Assembly: GCA_029260055.1 (NCBI GenBank)
Contig: JAJDDX010000030.1
Span: 1 to 35,996, forward strand
Direction of reading: 5' to 3'
DNA length: 35,996 nucleotides
DNA from: Phycisphaerae bacterium
GTDB taxonomy: Bacteria > Planctomycetota > Phycisphaerae > UBA1845
The notes beneath the pieces were generated by a model. That model was not told the DNA's origin. It did not search any database and worked only from the letters and a program-made list of their open reading frames with translations. A program made the position numbers and the translations under genes. Shown piece by piece: positions 5,135 through 20,713 of the stretch (positions are counted from its first letter, which is position 1; the number at the start of each line of letters is the position of its first letter).

Positions 5135-6133
5135 ATGGCAAAAACATGGAAAGATGCCGATATCAGTCTTGATCCAATTAAAGATCAAACAATCGCTGTA
5201 ATTGGTTATGGAATTCAAGGTGATGCACAAGCAAATAACATGAAAGACTCTGGTCTTGATGTGATAATTGGTCTTAAAGAAGGCGGTAACAGCTGGAAAA
5301 AGGCAAAATCTGATGGTCACAAAGTAATGTCTGTTGCAGATGCAACAAGAAAAGCTGATGTTGTACACATATTGATTCCTGATATGATTCAAGGTCAAGT
5401 ATACAAAGATGAAATCGGACCAAATCTTTCAGAAGGAAAAGCATTGTCATTTTCTCATGCGGCTGCAATCTATTGGAAATGGATTGAAGCACCAAGCAAC
5501 GTTGATTTAATCATGGTTGCACCAAAGGGACCTGGTTCTAAAGTCCGAGAAACATATCTTGATAATTTTGGAACTCCTGCAATTGTTGCAGTTGAACAAG
5601 ATTTTACAGGAAAAGCTTGGGATAGAACATTGGGAATTGCAAAAGCAATTGGTAGTGCAAGAGCTGGACTAATCAAAACTGCTTTCAAAGAGGAAGTAGA
5701 AACTGATTGGTTTGGTGAACAAGCTGACCTTTGTGGTGGAGCAGCTTCTATGGTTACAAATGCATTTGAAACTCTTGTTGAAGCAGGATATCAACCTGAA
5801 ATTGCATACTTTGAAGTTTTACATGAACTTAAACTCATTGTAGATATGATTCAAAGATATGGGATTAATGGAATGTGGAGACGTGTAAGTGAAACTGCTA
5901 GATATGGTGGACTAACACGTGGACCAATGGTTATGGATTCTACAAACAAAGAGAACATGAAAAAAGTTCTTACCATGATTCAAGATGGTACATTTAACAG
6001 CGAGTGGATTTCTGAATATCAGAAAAACGGTAAAGATGCATTTGACAAACACATGAAAGTATATGACGAACACCAAATTGAAAAAGTTGGTAAAGAAATG
6101 CGTAAAATGATGTGGCCTGATTCCACAGAATAA
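5135..6133 (+). CDS. ilvC: Ketol-acid reductoisomerase
   Basis: NADPH-dependent enzyme converting 2-acetolactate or 2-aceto-2-hydroxybutyrate to the dihydroxy acid in valine, leucine and isoleucine synthesis. It has 332 residues, the normal class I (short) length. The Rossmann motif GYGIQG is at about residues 24-29. The Mg-binding region DWFGEQADLCGG (Asp and Glu) is intact, and the C-terminal knotted domain includes the conserved ETARYGG segment. ilvB/N and ilvD are not in this window. It is convergent with the B12-binding mutase subunit, whose stop is 9 bases away. Confidence 0.97.
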   Translation: MAKTWKDADISLDPIKDQTIAVIGYGIQGDAQANNMKDSGLDVIIGLKEGGNSWKKAKSDGHKVMSVADATRKADVVHILIPDMIQGQVYKDEIGPNLSEGKALSFSHAAAIYWKWIEAPSNVDLIMVAPKGPGSKVRETYLDNFGTPAIVAVEQDFTGKAWDRTLGIAKAIGSARAGLIKTAFKEEVETDWFGEQADLCGGAASMVTNAFETLVEAGYQPEIAYFEVLHELKLIVDMIQRYGINGMWRRVSETARYGGLTRGPMVMDSTNKENMKKVLTMIQDGTFNSEWISEYQKNGKDAFDKHMKVYDEHQIEKVGKEMRKMMWPDSTE

Positions 6134-6166
6134 TCTTTTTTCTTATATTTTTCTTAATTTAGATAC
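6134..6166 (+). terminator. T-rich terminator after ilvC
   Basis: Directly after the ilvC stop the plus strand has several runs of T (six, five and shorter), typical of archaeal intrinsic termination. It overlaps the 3' end of the convergent gene. Confidence 0.4.
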
Positions 6167-6565
6167 ACCCGTTGTAATGTGATCAATGATTGTTGACAAT
6201 GGTGTACCTGGGCCAAATACATGATCAACTCCTGCTTTTACAAGATCATCATGATCTATGTCTGGAATTACTCCGCCTCCAACTATTAGCACATCTTTGA
6301 TTCCTTTCTTTTTTAGTGTCTTGACTACTCTTGGGAAAAGTGTTCCATGTGCTCCATTTAGCAAACTCATTGCTATTGCATCCACATCTTCATCTTCTGC
6401 AATTTGTGCAATTCTGTCTGGTGTAGCAAAAAGACCTGAATAGATTATTTTCATTCCTGCATCTCTGAATGTTTTACATAATACTAGGGCGTTTCTATCG
6501 TGACCGTCTAGCCCTAACTTGGCTACCAAAATTTTGATACTTCGTGATGCTGCTTTTTGCTTCAT
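6143..6565 (-). CDS. mcmA2: Methylmalonyl-CoA mutase small (B12-binding) subunit
   Basis: A 140-residue cobalamin-binding domain protein that pairs with the separate large subunit at 13165 to form methylmalonyl-CoA mutase (methylmalonyl-CoA to succinyl-CoA). In thaumarchaea this is a step of the 3-hydroxypropionate/4-hydroxybutyrate cycle. The N-terminal KLGLDGHDRN carries the lower-ligand His22. The later segments AMSLLNGAH and VGGGVIP match the SxL and GG motifs that hold the nucleotide tail. The family motif is D-x-H-x-x-G; here the last position is Asn25, an unusual change at a normally invariant glycine. Start is an ATG with a plausible box A about 25 bases upstream. Confidence 0.93.
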   Translation of the reverse strand: MKQKAASRSIKILVAKLGLDGHDRNALVLCKTFRDAGMKIIYSGLFATPDRIAQIAEDEDVDAIAMSLLNGAHGTLFPRVVKTLKKKGIKDVLIVGGGVIPDIDHDDLVKAGVDHVFGPGTPLSTIIDHITTGVSKLRKI

Positions 6566-12242: not shown

Positions 12243-13160
12243 TTGGATTTGCTTGTTGATCTAAAAAAAGGAAAACGTGGGGCAATTGCTAAAGCAATAA
12301 CTATTGTTGAAAATGATCAAACAGAAGCAAAAAAATTACTAAAGAAAATTTTCAAATCTAGTGGAAATTCAATTATAATTGGAATTACTGGGCCTGCTGG
12401 TGCTGGAAAAAGTTCATTAATTAACAAGACTGCTATGGAGATGAAAAAATTAGGCACAAAACCTGCTGTATTGGCAGTTGACCCTACGAGCCATGTTACT
12501 GGTGGAGCTATACTCGGCGATAGGGTTAGAATGAGTGAATCAACTGATTCTGGTACATATATTCGCAGTATTGCATCAAGAGGTGCAACGGGAGCTGTAT
12601 CTCGCTCATTACGAAACAGCATTAGAGTTTTAGAATTTGCTGGATTTGATCCGATAATCATTGAGAGTGTGGGAGCTGGGCAAACTGAAGTTGAGATTTC
12701 AAACATTGCAGATATTACAGTCGTTGTGTTTAATCCCAACACTGGTGATAGCATTCAAACAATCAAAGCCGGTTTAACTGAAATTGGGGATATCTATCTT
12801 GTTAATAAAAGTGACCTTAGTGGAACAAATCAACTATTTGATGCTGTACGTGATTTTATAGGAGATTCGGTTAGAAACCCTGTGATTCTAAAAACATCTG
12901 TAAAAAAGAATTCGGGAATTACGGTATTTGCTAAAACGTTGAAAGATATGATGAAATCTAAAAAACAATTCAAAGAAGTTAAGGATAAAGAACGACTGGA
13001 AGCGGAACTAAAAGATATTGTTTTAAATAACCTCAAAGAAAAGATTGATGAGTTGCTAGTTACTGATAAAACCTTTTCAAAATACCTTAAAAAATTACAA
13101 TCAAGAGAAATTGATCCTTTTGTAGCTGGGGACAAAATTACAAAATCTTTGGTAAAGTGA
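12243..13160 (+). CDS. meaB: MeaB/ArgK-type GTPase, methylmalonyl-CoA mutase chaperone
   Basis: A 305-residue G3E-family GTPase that gates adenosylcobalamin delivery to and protects methylmalonyl-CoA mutase. The P-loop GPAGAGKS is at residues 50-57. ESVGAGQTEVE (switch region) and NKSD (guanine specificity) follow, and the C-terminal helical dimerisation arm is present. The start is TTG at 12243; no better ATG exists upstream in frame. It precedes the mutase large subunit by 4 bases, the classic pairing. The older name LAO/AO transport ATPase is a misnomer for this family. Confidence 0.93.
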   Translation: MDLLVDLKKGKRGAIAKAITIVENDQTEAKKLLKKIFKSSGNSIIIGITGPAGAGKSSLINKTAMEMKKLGTKPAVLAVDPTSHVTGGAILGDRVRMSESTDSGTYIRSIASRGATGAVSRSLRNSIRVLEFAGFDPIIIESVGAGQTEVEISNIADITVVVFNPNTGDSIQTIKAGLTEIGDIYLVNKSDLSGTNQLFDAVRDFIGDSVRNPVILKTSVKKNSGITVFAKTLKDMMKSKKQFKEVKDKERLEAELKDIVLNNLKEKIDELLVTDKTFSKYLKKLQSREIDPFVAGDKITKSLVK

Positions 13161-13164
13161 TAAT

Positions 13165-14766
13165 ATGACTGAAAAAAAATCCATAAAATCAAAAACATCT
13201 GAAAAGAAAATATTTACAGACTCTGAATATATTGTAAAACGAATCTATCAAAAATCCATTAAAAAGAGACCTGTGGAAGATGCTGGAAAATATCCCTTTA
13301 CACGAGGAATCCATCCTGGAATGTTCCGTGAAAGATTTTGGACAATGCGGCAGTATTCTGGATTTGGTGATGCAAAATTAACTAATGAGAGATTCAAATT
13401 CATGCTTGAAAAGGGTCAGACTGGTCTTAGTATGGCGTTTGATTTGCCTACGCAGATTGGATATGATTCAGACTCTCCCCAAGCTGAAGGTGAAGTCGGC
13501 AAAGTTGGTGTATCCATTACATCAATTAAAGATATGATGACTGCCTTTGACGGGATACCTCTGGGAAAAGTAAGTTCTTCAATGACTATTAATTCTACAG
13601 CTTCTACACTTTTGGCATATTACATTGCAGTTGGAGAAGCTCAAGGATTCAAAAGTCATGAACTTCGTGGAACGACTCAAAATGACATTCTCAAAGAATA
13701 CATTGCAAGAAACACCTACATTTATCCTCCAGAACCATCTATGCGATTAATTGGTGATATGATAGAATATTGTGCCGAGAAGGTTCCATCCTGGTATCCT
13801 GTATCTATTTCTGGATATCATATGAGGGAAGCTGGTTGCACTGCAACACAAGAAGTTGCATTTACTTTGGCAAATGCTATTGCATATATTCAAACTTGTA
13901 TCGATAAAGGATTGAAAATTGATGACTTTGCACCTCGTTTGTCCTTTTTCTTTTGTTGTACTATAGAATTCTTTGAAGAAGTTGCAAAGTTCAGAGTTGC
14001 AAGAAAAGTTTATGCAAAAATTCTAAAAGAGATGTTTCATGCAAAAAATCCGCGTTCATTACAATTAAAATTCCATACACAAACTAGTGGGGAATCATTG
14101 ACTGCACAACAACCTAACAACAACATTGTTCGTGTTGCAATTCAAACAATGGCTGCAGTTGCAGGAGGTACTCAATCATTACACACAAATTCTCGTGATG
14201 AAGCATTAGCACTTCCAACTCAAGAATCTGCAAAAATAGCCTTGAGGACTCAACAGATTGTAGCTCATGAAAGTGGAATTACAAAGACTGCAGATCCTTT
14301 GGCTGGTTCTTATTATTTGGAGGAATTATGTGACCAAATTGAGGCTGATGTGTGGAAATACCTTAAAAAAATCCAGAAAATGGGCGGTTCTGTCAAAGCT
14401 ATAGAGAAAGGATTCTTTCAATCTGAGATCCGCGCAAATGCATATCGTCTGAAAAAAGAAACTGATGATGCTGAAAGGGTAATTGTTGGCGTAAACAAGT
14501 ATGCTGAAGAAGAAGAGCAACCAGAATTATTGAGAATTGATGGTAGAATTGAAATTCAACAAAAGAAAGCACTTAAAAAATTACGTGCTGATAGGGATTC
14601 TAAAAAATTAGAAAATGCATTATCTGCAATGCAAAGTGCTGCTGATACAGAAGAAAACCTAATGCCTTACATTGTGACTGCTGCTAAAGCATTTGCTACA
14701 ACTGGTGAAATTAGTAATACTTTCCGTAAGGTCTTTGGAGAATACCGTCCAAAAGAGGTCTTCTAA
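13165..14766 (+). CDS. mcmA1: Methylmalonyl-CoA mutase large (catalytic) subunit
   Basis: Catalytic TIM-barrel subunit of adenosylcobalamin-dependent mutase: methylmalonyl-CoA to succinyl-CoA, in the carbon-fixation cycle. It has 533 residues, with no fused B12 domain, matching the separate subunit at 6143. The substrate-binding stretch YPFTRGIHPGMF is at about residues 42-53. The SISGYHMREAGCTATQE stretch (family active-site Tyr-His) and AGSYYLE segments are intact. It probably forms an operon with meaB. In related genomes the epimerase is expected close by; here it lies 3 kb away across an accessory stretch. Confidence 0.96.
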   Translation: MTEKKSIKSKTSEKKIFTDSEYIVKRIYQKSIKKRPVEDAGKYPFTRGIHPGMFRERFWTMRQYSGFGDAKLTNERFKFMLEKGQTGLSMAFDLPTQIGYDSDSPQAEGEVGKVGVSITSIKDMMTAFDGIPLGKVSSSMTINSTASTLLAYYIAVGEAQGFKSHELRGTTQNDILKEYIARNTYIYPPEPSMRLIGDMIEYCAEKVPSWYPVSISGYHMREAGCTATQEVAFTLANAIAYIQTCIDKGLKIDDFAPRLSFFFCCTIEFFEEVAKFRVARKVYAKILKEMFHAKNPRSLQLKFHTQTSGESLTAQQPNNNIVRVAIQTMAAVAGGTQSLHTNSRDEALALPTQESAKIALRTQQIVAHESGITKTADPLAGSYYLEELCDQIEADVWKYLKKIQKMGGSVKAIEKGFFQSEIRANAYRLKKETDDAERVIVGVNKYAEEEEQPELLRIDGRIEIQQKKALKKLRADRDSKKLENALSAMQSAADTEENLMPYIVTAAKAFATTGEISNTFRKVFGEYRPKEVF

Positions 14767-14994
14767 ATAGTATTTTCATCATTTTATTATGTTATGTACT
14801 TTTTTAGTAATTGCTGAGTGTAAAGTTATCAGTCTATACAGTCCTAAAGCAATGATGAAAAGAAGTTAAAATCACATTTGGCACAGTGATACAAGACAAT
14901 ATTTTCAAAATTTGACATTAAGGGATTTGCCTTTGGTCTTTCAGAATTTATCAAAAAATACAAGTTATCTACCAGCCCAACAAGAGCTACAACA

Positions 14995-15180
14995 ATGAGC
15001 ACCTGCTGCAAGGGCTGCTGCTCAGAGTACGCATTAAAACGGGTTGCAAGTTCAGAATACTCTATCAAGGGTCGTAAATTATGTATCTGCTGTAACGCTT
15101 GGTTCACTTATTCTGGTTCACGTTACCTTTGCTGTTCAAGCCAACTGCGTACCAAGCCGCGTCACTCAAACAGAAAATAA
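14995..15180 (+). CDS. 61-residue Cys-rich zinc protein
   Basis: Small ORF from ATG 14995 to TAA 15180 with CCKGCC at residues 4-9, CICC near 31-34 and YLCC near 45-48, followed by the basic tail SQLRTKPRHSNRK. I recall a family of thaumarchaeal microproteins with a CKG-C start, a central C-x2-C and an LRTKPRN-type basic tail; this fits it. Zinc binding and nucleic-acid contact through the tail are inferred. The antisense 87-codon ORF over the same bases shows no such pattern and is rejected. The 228 bases upstream hold no other convincing gene. Confidence 0.7.
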   Translation: MSTCCKGCCSEYALKRVASSEYSIKGRKLCICCNAWFTYSGSRYLCCSSQLRTKPRHSNRK

Positions 15181-15325
15181 TAATTTATCAATATTCATTC
15201 GTACCAAAAAATAAATTGTTAATATTTTGCCTGGATTTTAAATCGTCATAATCCAAATAAAAATATCATAACGGCAAAAAAACTGACAATGCCTAACTGT
15301 TCTAAAAAAAGAATAAAGGGAAAAA

Positions 15326-15490
15326 TTAGAACTTGATTATTGATCCCTTACTGAGGGCGTATTCCTGGCTCTGCGTCTCCCCGTATCCGTCATACCAGCT
15401 GATTTTTAACCCAATCTCGTCTCTTACAGTGCTCTCAACTTCTATGGTGTGTGCCATCTGTATTCTGTCGCTCAATAGTGGTTCTTTCAT
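15326..15490 (-). CDS. 54-residue hypothetical protein
   Basis: ORF on the minus strand from ATG 15490 to TAA 15326 (protein starts MKEPLLSDRIQMAHTIEVES). It has a balanced, soluble composition with two predicted beta strands around IGLKISWYDGYGET and no Cys. An upstream stop (TAG) eight codons before the ATG limits the start. The coding stretch is visibly less AT-rich than its surroundings. I do not recognise it. The amino-acid composition and codon pattern argue for a real gene. Confidence 0.55.
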   Translation of the reverse strand: MKEPLLSDRIQMAHTIEVESTVRDEIGLKISWYDGYGETQSQEYALSKGSIIKF

Positions 15491-15730
15491 GATGTGTATT
15501 CCATATTGAAACTATAGCCAAAAGAGTGAAAAACAATATTTGATCGATTGAAATCTTTTGACAGTTAATAGTCTGATATGGTAGATTTTGGTGAAATATT
15601 TTGATCTAATTGATAAAACAATTATCCGCCAATTTCAAATACGGGATCGCAGTATAATTACGTGTTTTTGGTAACCGCCAGGACTAATCTAGACAGGTTC
15701 AAAGAACAAACCGATTTCAAGGTTCATTAA

Positions 15731-15910
15731 ATGGTGATTTTCAGCGAGATCATGATGCGATACAGGCTTACATGCTCAAAATGTGACATGGATCATACTC
15801 ATGAGACAGACTCAATGGATGGCATCAAAGACTTTTGGGATGGCTGGAACAAGTCCCATGAGAAAAACATGAAGTGCGTTCATGAGTATCTGTTTGAGAA
15901 GTTGAAGTGA
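15731..15910 (+). CDS. 59-residue CxxC protein
   Basis: ORF from ATG 15731 to TGA 15910. It holds CSKC at residues 15-18, then a His-rich stretch DHTHETD, a Trp-rich middle (FWDGWNKSHE) and Cys49 near the end, suggesting a single metal site of Cys and His. It could be a small DUF1059-unlike zinc protein. The start codon at 15734 (GTG) or the Met8/Met9 pair could also be used. Its stop touches the stop of the convergent gene at 15911. Family not recognised. Confidence 0.55.
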   Translation: MVIFSEIMMRYRLTCSKCDMDHTHETDSMDGIKDFWDGWNKSHEKNMKCVHEYLFEKLK

Positions 15911-16006
15911 TCATGAGATTGCAATTCCACATTCAGTGGAGCAAATTCTTCTGTTGAAAACATCTTCGTATTCCCTGTCACCGTGTACACATTTTCTAAA
16001 GACCAT
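15911..16006 (-). CDS. 31-residue Cys-containing microprotein
   Basis: Minus-strand ORF from ATG 16006 to TGA 15911 (starts MVFRKCVHGDREYEDVFNRR). It has Cys6, His8, and CSTEC (Cys22, Cys26), a spacing that could bind one zinc. The two stop codons of this and the convergent neighbour form TGATCA with no base between them. Very short, so confidence is limited, but composition is protein-like and a TGA blocks extension four to five codons upstream. Confidence 0.35.
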   Translation of the reverse strand: MVFRKCVHGDREYEDVFNRRICSTECGIAIS

Positions 16007-16135
16007 GATGTCATTACATCAATTTAGTATTTAACAAGACTACCAATTTCGTAATTTGATCGATGTTTTGATCTGGGTGAATCGTTTTGACAATGACTAA
16101 TCCCTCTTAATTCCAAACTGCCTAATTTCAATCCC

Positions 16136-16264
16136 ATGTCATACCGTTGCCTGCTATGTGATGAAACAATGGACACGCCTCACAATCTGGAGGTGCACCT
16201 GAAGATGTAGTACAAATGGAACAAAAAGAAAGAAGCATCTAAAGGGCTTGATAATTGGACATGA
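16136..16264 (+). pseudogene. C2H2 zinc-finger microgene interrupted by in-frame TAG
   Basis: From ATG 16136 the frame reads MSYRCLLCDETMDTPHNLEV and on to HLKM, then TAG at 16208. It continues in the same frame with YKWNKKKEASKGLDNWT to a TGA at 16262. CLLC (residues 5, 8) and H16, H21 make a C2H2-like finger. The basic, Trp-containing continuation looks like the natural C-terminus. The single-base change TAG from a sense codon is the simplest explanation. Otherwise a 24-residue peptide with a complete finger could still be made. Confidence 0.45.
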
Positions 16265-16333
16265 TTCGTTACATCATCGGAGGTAATTCAAACTTTTTGT
16301 AACGCCTAATGGTAAAATAAGACATCTCATAAC

Positions 16334-16414
16334 ATGTCTCTGAAATTACCGATAATTATGGCAGCAGTTGCAGTCTGTGCTTATTTGATAACAACCATCA
16401 TTAACAGTATCTGA
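16334..16414 (+). CDS. Possible 26-residue membrane peptide
   Basis: ATG 16334 to TGA 16414 encodes a peptide that is hydrophobic from residue 5 to 24 (start MSLKLPIIMAAVAVCAYLIT), enough for one membrane helix, with a Lys at the N-terminal side. There is a TAATGG-rich AT leader but no clear ribosome site. Could be a real micro-membrane protein or chance. Confidence 0.25.
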   Translation: MSLKLPIIMAAVAVCAYLITTIINSI

Positions 16415-16832
16415 TAATGCAAGTCCGATTTGTTTCAAAATTTTGTATGAAAATATGCGGTAATCTCCATCAGAATCCGACCCTTGTGATGAATTAATCG
16501 GATTGGGAATTTCTTTTAGAATCTGTTACAGACAAAGGTGTAATTGTTTTGTCTCAACTTTTTTATCGTTGAAACGTGCTATCGATGTGATGCAAAAAAT
16601 AGTTTTGAAGAAAAAGATAGATCCTGATTCGTTTGATCGGGAAACAATTATGCTGGGTACTCACCAAACCCCGCGCAATTAGTTTTTTAATGATTTCTTA
16701 ATCTCTGAAAGTGAGACCGTCAGGCCGAATGCGTGTTAAAAGTATGATGCAAAAATAACCTATACAAGGTCGTACGGAGAAGGGTTTTTTAGTCTAGACT
16801 TTTCTTGATTTTATTTTCAAAACATTACTGAA
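16415..16832. other. Gene-poor stretch with fragmentary ORFs
   Basis: No convincing gene. It holds a 26-codon ORF at 16417 (Cys10, Cys14). Around 16546-16620, a TTG-started frame ends in ETCYRCDAKNSFEEKDRS, a lone CxxC that may be the relic of another zinc protein. A 30-codon ORF overlaps it in another frame. Near 16784-16790 there is a T6 run consistent with a stop signal. No tRNA or repeat seen. Confidence 0.4.
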
Positions 16833-17651
16833 TTAATTTTTAGATTTTGCTACGTAAAAGTCTGCAAAGAAATTCCCTTCATCTTCATATTCCTTAGTGC
16901 TAATTCCCATTCCATGTAGTAAGGAAATGGTCTGTCCTTTTTCTTTAGGGCCTGAAAAACTTCTTTGACGTATTGGTTTTATTTCACTTTTTACAACAGA
17001 ATAGTCATACATTTTAAAAACTTCTTCAATGTCTTCCATGTCGAATATTCTGAGAACAGAGAATGCAAAAATTGGTGCGATATACTCTTTTTCAGATTTG
17101 ATATAATTGGATTGTCTATTTTTAATTGCTTTTAGTAAATTTAAAAATGACTTGTATCCGATATAGCCAACACAACCAGTTGCAATCACTAAATCTATTT
17201 TCGGTAATGATCCTAACAAATTTAATTTTTCAGCCTCAAGATCAACGTTCATACCTCTTTCACACAAGTTCATCTCTTCAGAGAATTTTAAAGCCTCATC
17301 TGAAATATCTATTTGATAGAAATTCATATTATCATTACAATTACATTCCTCGTAGAATTGTTTGGTCTCTATTCTTGTAGGTTCAGTTCCATTTAGAAAG
17401 AAATCATTCAATTCTGACATTGTTAAATTATATTTCATCAGTGATGAGTTGATACCGTATGAGCTTCCCAAGTCTAAAACATTAATGGGTCTGGATAATG
17501 TCTTTTCAAGTTGCTCTATGATGGAGTTGTACAGCGGTTTTGTAGAATCTGATATGTCATATTCCAATCTATCCATCTCCTTTAGATAACTGCGTGGAGA
17601 ACCTTGCGTGTAAATATCTGTAAAATCTTTTTTTACTTTTAATTCATCCAT
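16833..17651 (-). CDS. Class I SAM-dependent methyltransferase-like protein
   Basis: A 272-residue protein from ATG 17651. Motif I is NVLDLGSSYGINSSLM at about residues 55-70 (the glycine-rich SAM loop is DLGSSYG). An acidic motif-II-like region (NFYQIDISDEAL) follows at about 109-120, and then PKIDLVIATGCVGYIG, a motif IV-like strand near 150-165. There are Cys residues in CNCND but no zinc pair. No membrane segment. The substrate cannot be inferred; the YIGYKSF and SGPKEKGQT regions do not match RNA or protein methyltransferases I know. It stands alone inside the accessory stretch and is transcribed away from the epimerase. Confidence 0.65.
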   Translation of the reverse strand: MDELKVKKDFTDIYTQGSPRSYLKEMDRLEYDISDSTKPLYNSIIEQLEKTLSRPINVLDLGSSYGINSSLMKYNLTMSELNDFFLNGTEPTRIETKQFYEECNCNDNMNFYQIDISDEALKFSEEMNLCERGMNVDLEAEKLNLLGSLPKIDLVIATGCVGYIGYKSFLNLLKAIKNRQSNYIKSEKEYIAPIFAFSVLRIFDMEDIEEVFKMYDYSVVKSEIKPIRQRSFSGPKEKGQTISLLHGMGISTKEYEDEGNFFADFYVAKSKN

Positions 17652-17768
17652 CTTGGAGTATTGGTATCATTCGTCACTTAATAAAGCCAGAACATTGAGC
17701 TAGTCACGAAACAAAAATTTCACAATAACATAAATCCATTAATACTATAAGTTGAGGATGTCTTTTAG

Positions 17769-18167
17769 TTGAAAATTGATCATATTGCAATTGCAGTAAA
17801 TGATGTTGAAGGATCTGCTAAAATTTACCAACAAGCCCTAGGTGTTGATGATGTTGAATTTGAAACAGTAGAGTCTGAAGGTGTTAAAGTTGCAATTTTA
17901 CATTTAGAAAATGCTCGTGTGGAGTTAATGCAACCCACAAATGATTCTAGCCCTATTAAGAAATTTTTAGATAAAAAGGGTCAAGGATTACATCATATGG
18001 CATTAGACACTGATAACATTGAAGGCGAGGTTGAACGAATGGAAGGGTGTGGAATTCAATTTTTAGGTAAGATTAGGCCTGGATCTGCTGGAACTAAAGT
18101 TACTTTCATCCATCCAAAATCATTGCATGGTGTATTGACAGAACTTTGCTCTCATCCTAAAGAGTGA
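17769..18167 (+). CDS. mce: Methylmalonyl-CoA epimerase
   Basis: Glyoxalase/VOC-fold metal enzyme that interconverts the R and S forms of methylmalonyl-CoA so the mutase can act. It has 132 residues with two beta-alpha-beta-beta-beta repeats. The first metal ligand His is in KIDHIAIAV (residue 5), another in GLHHMALD, and the last Glu in the GVLTELC segment near the end. The start is TTG at 17769 with an AT box (AATACTATAA, 17741-17750) about 20-28 bases upstream, pointing to a leaderless mRNA of its own. It belongs functionally with genes at 6143, 12243 and 13165 but is separated from the large subunit by 3 kb. Confidence 0.94.
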   Translation: MKIDHIAIAVNDVEGSAKIYQQALGVDDVEFETVESEGVKVAILHLENARVELMQPTNDSSPIKKFLDKKGQGLHHMALDTDNIEGEVERMEGCGIQFLGKIRPGSAGTKVTFIHPKSLHGVLTELCSHPKE

Positions 18168-18220
18168 ATCGACGTAATCAATCTTATCTAGATGGAACAA
18201 ATAACATGATGTTCAAAGAT

Positions 18221-18475
18221 CTATGCTGGAATGGATAATTCTTGTAAATGATTATAATGAGTTCTCAAAAAATCCATGGTTTTTCTGGCTTCAGTTTTAT
18301 CAAGTGGGGCTCCATTTGCAAGAATACTTGGATGTTTCAGATCAGACTTTAGTTCGTGAAGTGCTTTTTTGAGTTCTTGATCATGATTTGGTCTCAAAAA
18401 CTCTGTAATGCTATTTTCTATTTGTAAAATATCATTTTCTAAATTTGTGATGTCATGACGAATATTATTTTGCAT
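18221..18475 (-). CDS. Small helical protein of unknown function
   Basis: An 84-residue protein from ATG 18475 (a TTG at 18499 would add 8 residues). The sequence is helical with leucine-rich heptad-like spacing (TNLENDILQIENSITEFL, then ELKKALHELKSDLK), suggesting a small coiled coil. It has no Cys and no membrane segment. Convergent with the epimerase. I do not recognise the family. Confidence 0.55.
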   Translation of the reverse strand: MQNNIRHDITNLENDILQIENSITEFLRPNHDQELKKALHELKSDLKHPSILANGAPLDKTEARKTMDFLRTHYNHLQELSIPA

Positions 18476-18695
18476 TAGAATTCTAAAGATGTTATTCAAG
18501 ATAACTTCGATTCTTGCATCTCTTAATTATTGATTAATAATTACTAAAAAATCAAACAGATCTTTCATTTTGGCACCATAATGTTTATTGTCAATTTTGT
18601 ATCAAATGAATTATGGGAGAATATGAAATGGCGGCATACCATGTACGCTCTACTCTTACTTTGAGTGGGATCGAAGGTCAAAATTAGAGGAATTA

Positions 18696-18857
18696 ATGGC
18701 AAAACTGACCTGTGCAAATTATGGTTTTGAGTGTGATTTTATCGCAGAAGGTGAAATGGAAGATGTAATTAAAAAATTCAGAACTCATACAAATGATGAA
18801 CATGGAATAGATTATTCAAAGGAATCCTTAATGCAATTTATTATCCGTCAGAATTAG
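18696..18857 (+). CDS. DUF1059-family small protein
   Basis: A 53-residue ORF from ATG 18696, starting MAKLTCANYGFECDFIAEGE. The pattern C-x6-C, an acidic helix and a conserved HTNDEHG-type stretch is the DUF1059 signature. Family members are short putative metal or ligand-binding proteins common in haloarchaea, thaumarchaea and soil bacteria; biochemistry is unknown. The same frame stays open upstream to a TGA near 18627 with protein-like sequence but no start codon. A second DUF1059 gene lies at 20968 on the other strand. Confidence 0.65.
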   Translation: MAKLTCANYGFECDFIAEGEMEDVIKKFRTHTNDEHGIDYSKESLMQFIIRQN

Positions 18858-18871
18858 ATTAGATGAAAAAT

Positions 18872-18900
18872 ACTAACGAATAATTGACTCGCTTCATCTA
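18872..18900 (+). repeat. Direct repeat A, copy 1
   Basis: 29 bases beginning ACTAACGAATA and ending CATCTA; 23 of 29 bases are shared with copy 2 at 19459-19487. Starts 15 bases after the DUF1059 stop. Confidence 0.45.
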
Positions 18901-18928
18901 CTAAATTATTTCAATTTTTTTCATAATC

Positions 18929-19309
18929 TTATATGGGATTATGGATCAACTCAAGAACTTTGTTGATAATTCTTGTATGATCTACACTGGTTTCAGTAGC
19001 CAGCAATAGCATATGTTTCTCATCTATTGGAAATGTGATTCGTTTTAGTTTGTCATATTCAGCCATGGCATATTTGGTATTGCCTAGTTTGTGCTCGATA
19101 TTTTTTCTAGTTTGCCATCTTTGACTTGCATAATAATGCATCATCTTAAGTTCATCATCACTGAGTATTGGGTTGACTTTGTCCCTAAAACCTCCACAAA
19201 TCTTTTCGCCATTTTTGTCTTGAATAGCAGTATACCGAATTGCAGAATCTATGCTCATGACATCAGCATACAATTTATCAAAATCCAATAATGTCTTAAT
19301 TGGAATCAA
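18929..19309 (-). CDS. DUF6659-like thaumarchaeal protein
   Basis: A 126-residue protein starting at TTG 19309; an ATG at codon 18 is an alternative. The architecture DFDKLYADVMSIDSAIRYTA, then DKNGEKICGG, then the Arg-rich RWQTRKNIEHKLG and the strand RITFPIDEKHMLLLATE resembles the profilin/roadblock-like DUF6659 proteins that occur in many copies in Thaumarchaeota. Their role is unknown; a sensing or scaffold role is inferred from fold resemblance. No membrane segment. It lies between two copies of a direct repeat. Confidence 0.65.
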   Translation of the reverse strand: MIPIKTLLDFDKLYADVMSIDSAIRYTAIQDKNGEKICGGFRDKVNPILSDDELKMMHYYASQRWQTRKNIEHKLGNTKYAMAEYDKLKRITFPIDEKHMLLLATETSVDHTRIINKVLELIHNPI

Positions 19310-19458
19310 CTATTAAAATTTGAATTATCAATTTGCATAACCGTATACAAGATTACGTGATATTGTTTCCCCATCCACTCTCCACTAAATAGTAAATCTC
19401 AAATTATACCTAAGAAAGTCTCAAGTTTCTAAGGAGTAAACCCAAAGAACCTAAAAAA

Positions 19459-19487
19459 ACTAACGAATAGTTGGCCTGATCCATCTA
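19459..19487 (+). repeat. Direct repeat A, copy 2
   Basis: 29 bases matching 23 of 29 positions of copy 1 at 18872-18900; together they bracket the DUF6659-like gene. Confidence 0.45.
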
Positions 19488-19508
19488 AATATAATTTAAA
19501 TTTTAGAT

Positions 19509-19542
19509 GATAAGCTCGTTTTACTTTACCTATCCTAAAGAA
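19509..19542 (+). repeat. Direct repeat B, copy 1
   Basis: 34 bases beginning GATAAGCTCGTTTTACTT and ending TCCTAAAGAA, matching copy 2 (19678-19711) at 31 of 34. In frame from ATG 19507 it encodes ISSFYFTYPKE within a 16-codon ORF, so it could be a duplicated coding relic. The interval 19310-19763 otherwise shows no gene. Confidence 0.5.
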
Positions 19543-19677
19543 CAAACTAGGTCTTAAACACCATCAAAGGTTCGGATTGTAGAGGATTTGGTTCTAAGAG
19601 AATTAAACTAATTTTCTAAAATTCGCCCCCGGCATTAAAAGGATCAAAATAAGCCACTTTCTAACTATTAAGTTACG

Positions 19678-19711
19678 GATAAGCTCGTTTTACTTCACTA
19701 ATCCTAAAGAA
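19678..19711 (+). repeat. Direct repeat B, copy 2
   Basis: 31 of 34 identical to copy 1, 169 bases downstream. In the matching frame it reads ISSFYFTNPKE then a stop, again without a start codon. Confidence 0.5.
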
Positions 19712-19763
19712 TAGCCGCATACTAAACGTATTCTAACTATCAATACGCTTAAGTGAACGGGAA

Positions 19764-19925
19764 ATTCTGATTTGTACGAACTGCCATAAAATAAGCGAAC
19801 CTCATGTTTGGAGATATTCAAAAACCAACAAATTTCGTAGATGTGTTAAATGCAAATCAAAAATTAAAATGAATCAAAAAGAATTTGACCTCAAATGGGG
19901 TAAAAATCAAATCATTGTTCAATAG
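19764..19925 (+). pseudogene. Zinc-ribbon ORF without a standard start codon
   Basis: The frame is open from a TAA near 19731 to TAG 19923. It has a clear ribbon: CTNC (from 19773) and, 21 residues later, CVKC, followed by the basic KSKIKMNQKEFDLKWGKN. No ATG, GTG or TTG precedes the first CxxC in frame; only ATT and CTG (19764-19772) are available. Either it starts at a rare codon, or a 5' part was lost. Its end lies one base from the end of the convergent zinc ribbon gene. Confidence 0.45.
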
Positions 19926-19926
19926 A

Positions 19927-20043
19927 TTATTTCCTGCTCTCTTTTTGTCTAATTTGGTTGCACCTGTCACATAGTTTGTAATTTTTACCGATTCCTCTAG
20001 AACTTCTACACGATGTCCCGCATTTTTTACATATGTAATCCAT
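19927..20043 (-). CDS. 38-residue zinc-ribbon protein
   Basis: Minus-strand ORF from ATG 20043 to TAA 19927. CKKCGTSC (residues 5-12) and CDRC (25-28) frame a basic loop with RSSRG; the tail NQIRQKESRK is basic. This is a typical mini zinc ribbon that could bind nucleic acid. It lies tail to tail with the ribbon ORF at 19764 and about 60 bases downstream of the HTH-CBS gene on the same strand. Function unknown. Confidence 0.6.
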   Translation of the reverse strand: MDYICKKCGTSCRSSRGIGKNYKLCDRCNQIRQKESRK

Positions 20044-20104
20044 GTGATGATTGTTTGAAATCAATTGTCTTAAGACTATTTGCTGTTAGAAAAAATTAAC
20101 AATG

Positions 20105-20713
20105 TCATTCCATCATTTTTAAAGTATCTGATGCTGTTATGATGCCTATGATTTTTGTTTTTTTTGAAACTAGAATGCATTTAGAATATCTTATCAAAGG
20201 AACCAGAACATTTGCAGGTGTATCGAAATCTACAATTGGTGGAACTGAATCCATGGTGTCTGATAACTTTGCTTTTTTTAATTCTGTTTCTCCTAAATCT
20301 GAAAGATGTTTCACTATTCCGTCCTCTGAGACCACTCCTACTACATCTGAATTGTCAAACACTGGAATTTGACTAATGGATAACTCATGCATTTTTTTAA
20401 TTGCATCATGAAGAGTGTTTGTTGGTTTTAACTTTACAATACTCTTGCTGCAAAAATCCCCTGCGGTATGAGATGATGATTCTCCTTCTAATTTGGCAAG
20501 ACTTTCAAATATTTTTTTAGCAGTCTCATAACTTGGCTGGCTTCTCCCTGATTCAATTTGGTTGATCATTGAAGTGCTTATTCCTGCCATAGTTGCAAGT
20601 TTTTTTTGAGTAATGCCAATTTTCAACCTAATTTGTTTAATGGAATCAATTCTGGGTAGCAATTCATTTAGAGATGATTTTGATTGATTTAAAAATTTAT
20701 TTTCAGAGATCAT
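20105..20713 (-). CDS. HTH (XRE) plus CBS-pair regulator
   Basis: A 202-residue transcription regulator. Residues about 22-70 form a Cro/C1-type helix-turn-helix (QIRLKIGITQKKLATMAGIS, then SMINQIESGRSQPS). Residues about 85-200 are two CBS modules (SISQIPVFDNSDVVGVVSED and ILVSKKTKIIGIITASDT), which usually sense adenosyl ligands such as AMP, ATP or SAM. This architecture is common in archaea. The ATG lies 6 bases after the stop of the C2H2 microgene upstream, so the two are likely co-transcribed. Targets not evident. Confidence 0.88.
   Translation of the reverse strand: MISENKFLNQSKSSLNELLPRIDSIKQIRLKIGITQKKLATMAGISTSMINQIESGRSQPSYETAKKIFESLAKLEGESSSHTAGDFCSKSIVKLKPTNTLHDAIKKMHELSISQIPVFDNSDVVGVVSEDGIVKHLSDLGETELKKAKLSDTMDSVPPIVDFDTPANVLVPLIRYSKCILVSKKTKIIGIITASDTLKMME

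Follow-up and report, generated by a model that had tools for sequence, protein, structure and literature searches.

The 3′ end of mcmA1 as a probable attachment site for integrative elements and small recombinase-less modules in Nitrosopumilaceae

Comparison of related sequences indicates that the 3′ end of mcmA1, the gene for the methylmalonyl-CoA mutase large subunit, is probably an attB used by integrative elements, and also by small modules that lack a recombinase and derive from such elements or are mobilised by them. About a quarter of Nitrosopumilaceae carry 0.14–14 kb of DNA, with varying genes, at the junction between mcmA1 and mce, the gene for methylmalonyl-CoA epimerase. In the window, which is the whole stretch of DNA analysed here (35,996 nt; contig JAJDDX010000030.1 of assembly GCA_029260055.1), the insert between the two genes measures 3.0 kb. 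Such a site would mark a specific attachment point within a core-pathway operon of archaea that rank among the most abundant microbes of the sea, and would explain why the epimerase gene belongs to the operon in some genomes and stands apart from it in others. It would also offer a marker of gene gain and loss in archaea whose gene-exchange routes are poorly known and, as these archaea have little genetics, a recombinase and site that can be tested together. A prior description of the mcmA1 target and its modular arrays was not found in the open-access literature searched.

The source assembly comprises 7.6 Mb in 500 contigs, and its relatives are large genomes with epimerases that are at most 44% identical. 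The conserved genes of the window are mostly 80–98% identical to Nitrosopumilus counterparts, and the archaeal 3-hydroxypropionyl-CoA synthetase has no close copy in the source assembly (best 53%). Given a bacterial-looking assembly and Nitrosopumilus-like window genes, the contig is probably an archaeal (Nitrosopumilus-like) contaminant in a bacterial bin. The comparison was therefore made against Nitrosopumilaceae genomes and not against the assembly's own bacterial-looking relatives.

Of 80 Nitrosopumilaceae loci that have mce, 66 have mcmA1 as well (the window counted). Alignment of the mcmA1–mce interval over these relatives, the check that had been set beforehand, shows the mcmA1 stop directly abutting the mce start in 46 of the 66, with a gap of 2–4 nt, and the other ~20 loci carry an insert of 0.5–4 kb at the exact junction. 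A second survey, in which a 300-bp junction probe was run over 200 genomes, found a match spanning the junction in at least 89 genomes (compact) and both probe halves on one contig, 0.14–14 kb apart, in at least 23 (split). Some of the split genomes are single contigs of 1.5–2.2 Mb, so the split alleles are no assembly artefact. Since mcmA1 and mce abut in most relatives and the remainder differ in content at the exact junction, the locus is both an insertion and a hypervariable spot, as the original prediction had proposed.

That prediction also placed the end of mcmA1 at 14766 and the start of mce at 17769, both correctly, and its naming of the mutase, MeaB and the epimerase agrees with NCBIfam models TIGR00641, TIGR00750 and TIGR03081 (Table 1). 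The content it described for the interval is likewise found, in that the 272-aa methyltransferase-like gene is the single long gene and the remaining ORFs are short. As for the proposed microgenes, the Cys-rich 61-mer matches a small Cys-rich family at 30–34% over its full length; this family occurs in 60 of 61 surveyed genomes of Nitrosopumilaceae with up to 14 matches each (e.g., L023:8618-8821), and no Pfam model was found for it. A Pfam scan gave no support to the window microgenes, the 54-mer and the broken C2H2 finger among them, and an Rfam scan of the window returned no match. The observation is confirmed only in part, and its argument from composition fails: the first part of the interval, taken to be less AT-rich, has 36.2% GC (14767–16780) versus 35.5% for the remaining window sequence, a difference at chance level, since 30% of windows of that size are as high. 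The repeat copies, the recombinase-bearing element, the tandem modules and the second site described below were not part of the prediction.

Table 1. Features of the mcmA1–mce region of the window, and the recombinase gene of the Nitrosarchaeum sp. BD3 insert (L124).
Feature	Position	Strand	Basis
meaB, mutase-associated GTPase	12243..13160	+	TIGR00750 E=1.7e-78 (NCBIfam); meaB-mcmA1-mce order kept across loci
mcmA1, methylmalonyl-CoA mutase large subunit; proposed attB at its 3′ end	13165..14766	+	TIGR00641 E=3e-226 (NCBIfam)
Core copy 1 (attL side), GAGGTCTTCTAA; last 3 codons and stop of mcmA1	14755..14766	+	Sequence; repeat statistics
Module 1, degenerate, with short ORFs; missing in closest relative G146 (L218)	14767..16780	.	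Boundary by comparison with L218
Cys-rich 61-aa ORF, distant member of a multi-copy small Cys-rich family	14995..15180	+	Related ORFs in same-site inserts of L023, L062 and L206
59-aa Cys-containing ORF; family search without result	15731..15910	+	
Core copy 2 (internal), AGGGTTTTTTAG; 9/12 identical to GAGGTCTTTTAG	16781..16792	+	Junction HMM; homologous position is the mcmA1 end in L218
Methyltransferase module, left edge (TCTAGACTTTTCTTGATTTTATTTTC...)	16793..16836	.	Junction HMM; L218 comparison
272-aa SAM-dependent methyltransferase-like gene	16833..17651	-	Weak Pfam Methyltransf_23 match, E=8e-4
Right module edge, including TATA-like TTAATA at 17739-17744 (30 nt before mce)	17716..17768	+	HMM E=1e-11
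Core copy 3, GATGTCTTTTAG; directly before mce	17757-17768	+	Within right module edge
mce, methylmalonyl-CoA epimerase; start codon TTG	17769..18167	+	TIGR03081 E=2e-40 (NCBIfam)
BD3 tyrosine recombinase; gene nearest mce, start 69 bp away	L124 13463-14980	-	Pfam Phage_integrase E=1e-8

On an mcmA1 DNA tree, the compact and split states require at least 11 changes, 8 of which are forced by well-supported branches. Because the deep-branching MnTg01 and Nitrosopelagicus are compact, the compact arrangement is probably ancestral on this tree, for which the root is not inferred. At L217, a 140-bp remnant of a putative promoter is left at the junction, indicating that not every loss was precise. 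A separate case is G218 (L222), where an unrelated stretch that includes an apparent aminoacyl-tRNA synthetase gene comes after mcmA1 and no mce lies within ~11 kb, which suggests a rearrangement in this genome.

The final ~12 nt of mcmA1 (GAGGTCTTTTAR) are repeated just before mce and between the modules of some inserts. Across 33 split alleles, the 12 nt before mce and the 12 nt that end mcmA1 in that genome share a mean of 8.24/12 identities, with 15 of the 33 reaching at least 9/12; slid control positions average 2.3–4.0, and a value of 9 is not attained at any of 621 other ORF starts. The repeat before mce is little or absent in 3–5 of the 33 (L024, L054 and L213; weakly L053 and L069), so that other routes of gain exist. 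Both insert edges are conserved across split alleles, including a second conserved edge after the mcmA1 stop (TTAGACCTTTCATGAATTTATTTTC), and nearly all significant edge matches belong to the mcmA1–mce site. The mcmA1 end encodes ..KEVF-stop and, where mce abuts it, is also placed like a Shine-Dalgarno sequence of that gene. In 25 of the 33 split alleles, TTAATA lies 29–30 nt before the mce start, about where an archaeal TATA box is expected when the transcript is leaderless. This TATA-like box at −30 suggests that mce of split alleles has a promoter of its own.

A junction profile consisting of right edge, core and left edge was built from fused ends. Complete internal junctions are found with it inside the inserts of L024 (E=1.2e-18) and L027 (2e-12), and also of G079 and G251, which indicates several modules in tandem; in the window it matches 16781–16836 (left edge, E=5.6e-4). 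The closest relative found, G146 (mcmA1 93% and methyltransferase module 89% identical), has an insert that consists of the methyltransferase module alone, starting at the homologous base without module 1, and its methyltransferase gene is interrupted. By this comparison, the insert of the window is composed of module 1 (14767 to ~16780) and the methyltransferase module (~16793 to 17768), a cassette of ~990 bp. No recombinase gene was found among the window ORFs, and thus the insert can be no more than a non-autonomous or decayed relative. Most inserts are without a recombinase, and cargo genes at the site are of many kinds (DnaJ-TPR, MFS, histidine kinase, CBS, nitroreductase, hemerythrin, CorA and AsnC). 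Defence genes were absent from the cargo scanned with PADLOC, apart from a weak CorA match.

In Nitrosarchaeum sp. BD3, 14.1 kb lie between mcmA1 and mce. This insert has a ~16-nt repeat on its two sides (AAAAGAGGTCTTTTA at the end of mcmA1, AAACAAAAGAGGTCTTTTAG directly before mce) and holds a tyrosine recombinase gene (Table 1). The sole NCBIfam match of the recombinase is XerC, at 24 bits versus a cut-off of 335, and its residues R274, K321, H402xxR405 and H428 are conserved in 13–15 of 15 family members. Some match to it occurs in 29 of the 200 genomes, with full-length relatives 31–41% identical, and at four recombinase-family loci a tRNA gene lies ~0.1–0.3 kb from the recombinase. Between mcmA1 and mce, the search for integrases gave this one intact gene and two N-terminal remnants (L086 and G251), in which nothing beyond the first 38–48 residues is left and which lie equally far from mce. 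When the right edges outside the core were scored with a profile made from the remaining inserts, none of 811 control upstream regions scored as high as L124 and L086; the match of G251 (L205) outside the core alone is not significant. The features of integrative elements found at the site are thus an empty state in relatives, a recombinase beside att in BD3 along with the two remnants, and direct repeats matching attB at both ends, as seen in BD3 and in the repeat statistics and not recognisable in a minority of alleles. Neither an excised circle nor a population with both empty and filled alleles was observed. Other genes of the BD3 element specify a 1102-aa fibronectin-type-III/HYR protein (L124:1207-4515) and a matrixin-like metallopeptidase (5854-6474). 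A PHROGs scan of the element found no viral structural gene, and neither the recombinase nor the methyltransferase was found in IMG/VR viral contigs.

The methyltransferase-like gene is recurrent cargo at mcmA1–mce, and is also found at three other places in other genomes. Close relatives (≥72%) occur in eleven genomes, in three of them elsewhere than at mcmA1–mce. In G258, the gene lies between a PAS gene, beside that for 3-hydroxypropionyl-CoA synthetase, and a FEN1-like gene, with its left edge recognisable, though mcmA1–mce of this genome is compact. The PAS site of G071 and G079 features the left edge together with AAAAGAGGTCTTTTA, and one cargo ORF is common to the PAS site and the mcmA1 site of G170. 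In G218, the methyltransferase gene adjoins a DnaJ-TPR gene like that of the L013 mcmA1–mce insert. A methyltransferase tree intermixes mcmA1-site copies with those of other sites, at modest support. The empty PAS–FEN1 gap (ancestral state) is 42–45 bp and was searched for the core without a match, so a pre-existing core does not explain integration there. No sequence relative of the methyltransferase was found in the PDB.

These data are best accommodated if the last ~12–17 bases of mcmA1 (CAAAAGAGGTCTTTTAG) act as the attachment site for tyrosine-recombinase elements. Through a crossover in the core, catalysed by the recombinase, mcmA1 would take the element's copy of the stop (often TAA for TAG), and a second core would be left before mce; repeated integration at either core copy would then give tandem arrays. 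Small modules such as the methyltransferase cassette may be what is left by recombinase loss, or may be spread by mobilisation in trans. Cut off from its operon, mce would probably gain the right-edge promoter with its predicted leaderless transcript, and recombination between the flanking cores could bring back the compact operon without a scar. Points that count against this account are the single intact recombinase at the site, the empty PAS–FEN1 gap without a core, the split alleles with little or no repeat, the edge of G251, the imprecise loss at L217, and the lack of any observed circle or mixed population.

Part of the evidence can also be read as a single ancient insertion that split the operon, after which its contents turned over and many lineages lost the insert, by slippage at the short core repeats or recombination between them, while site-specific integration played no recent part. 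Conserved edges whose significant matches lie nearly all at mcmA1–mce agree with such a history, and direct repeats permit precise deletion. It is nonetheless unlikely, as the tandem internal junctions, the 14-kb recombinase-bearing element with an intact repeat and the module found elsewhere all need renewed integration or transfer. Somewhat less likely still is a passive hotspot, where accessory DNA would be exchanged by homologous recombination via the flanking core genes, like integrase-free hotspots elsewhere, and the repeat would be a remnant of the original junction. The diverse cargo and the missing recombinase of most inserts are in its favour, but in close split/compact pairs the divergence shows no rise or step near the junction, which argues against import by flanking homologous recombination, and core copies inside arrays and the second-site module are left unexplained.

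Insertion of a transposon or casposon with a target-site duplication of ~12–15 bp is very improbable. Tandem insertion of thaumarchaeal casposons into ef-2 is known (PMC6563490), and the two edges of the mcmA1–mce inserts resemble weak inverted repeats. However, these terminal inverted repeats, seen by eye, fold no better than shuffled sequence, the sole autonomous element found carries a tyrosine recombinase, and neither Cas1 nor a transposase was recognised among the selected cargo proteins scanned (Pfam, with PADLOC for Cas1). The tandem casposons in ef-2 of N. adriaticus NF5 (PMC6563490) resemble the mcmA1–mce inserts in that one protein-gene 3′ end is re-used for tandem insertion, and differ from them in the enzyme, which at mcmA1–mce is a tyrosine recombinase.

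Site-specific integration into protein-gene 3′ ends is known in these archaea (PMC6563490). The element NitEve-E2 has a 13 bp att at the 3′ end of its target gene, whose stop TAG is exchanged for the element's TAA (Krupovic et al., 2019, PMC6563490). The mcmA1 site shares with it the short att, the position at a gene 3′ end and the change of TAG to TAA, and has a tyrosine recombinase as do many surveyed elements; unlike NitEve-E2, it involves mcmA1 and the splitting of an operon, and its inserts are mostly small recombinase-less modules, some of them in tandem. The target list of that survey does not include mcmA1, and the word "methylmalonyl" is absent from its text (PMC6563490). Tandem single-gene modules, a repeated junction and an often missing recombinase are also features of integron cassette arrays and archaeal CALINs (Ghaly et al., 2022, PMC9668308). 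Unlike these, mcmA1–mce inserts lie at the end of a core gene, with no adjacent intI or attI found and no attC-like fold at the junctions, for which RNAalifold predicts no pairs and shuffle z-scores range from −0.6 to 1.8; assignment to integrons or CALINs was rejected.

A broader and more speculative possibility is a cassette system of ammonia-oxidizing archaea, in which single-gene modules with conserved ends would be moved in trans between at least two docking sites beside carbon-fixation genes (mcmA1–mce and 3-hydroxypropionyl-CoA synthetase/PAS/FEN1), with each integration swapping operon read-through for a module-borne promoter.

Other variable regions and methyltransferase relatives were also observed. 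The PAS/FEN1-like junction is a second hypervariable junction (L122, L123, L221, L226, L230 and L235), of ~0.5–4.2 kb when filled. In the window, the stretch at 18168–20104, which separates mce from HTH-CBS (20105–20713), the conserved gene that follows, is variable as well; DUF1059 and DUF6659 genes lie in it, and the 80 related loci contained no match to any of its ORFs. A second methyltransferase subfamily (56–61% identical) occurs elsewhere in Nitrosopumilaceae genomes, and bacterial plasmids carry methyltransferase relatives at 27–31% identity.
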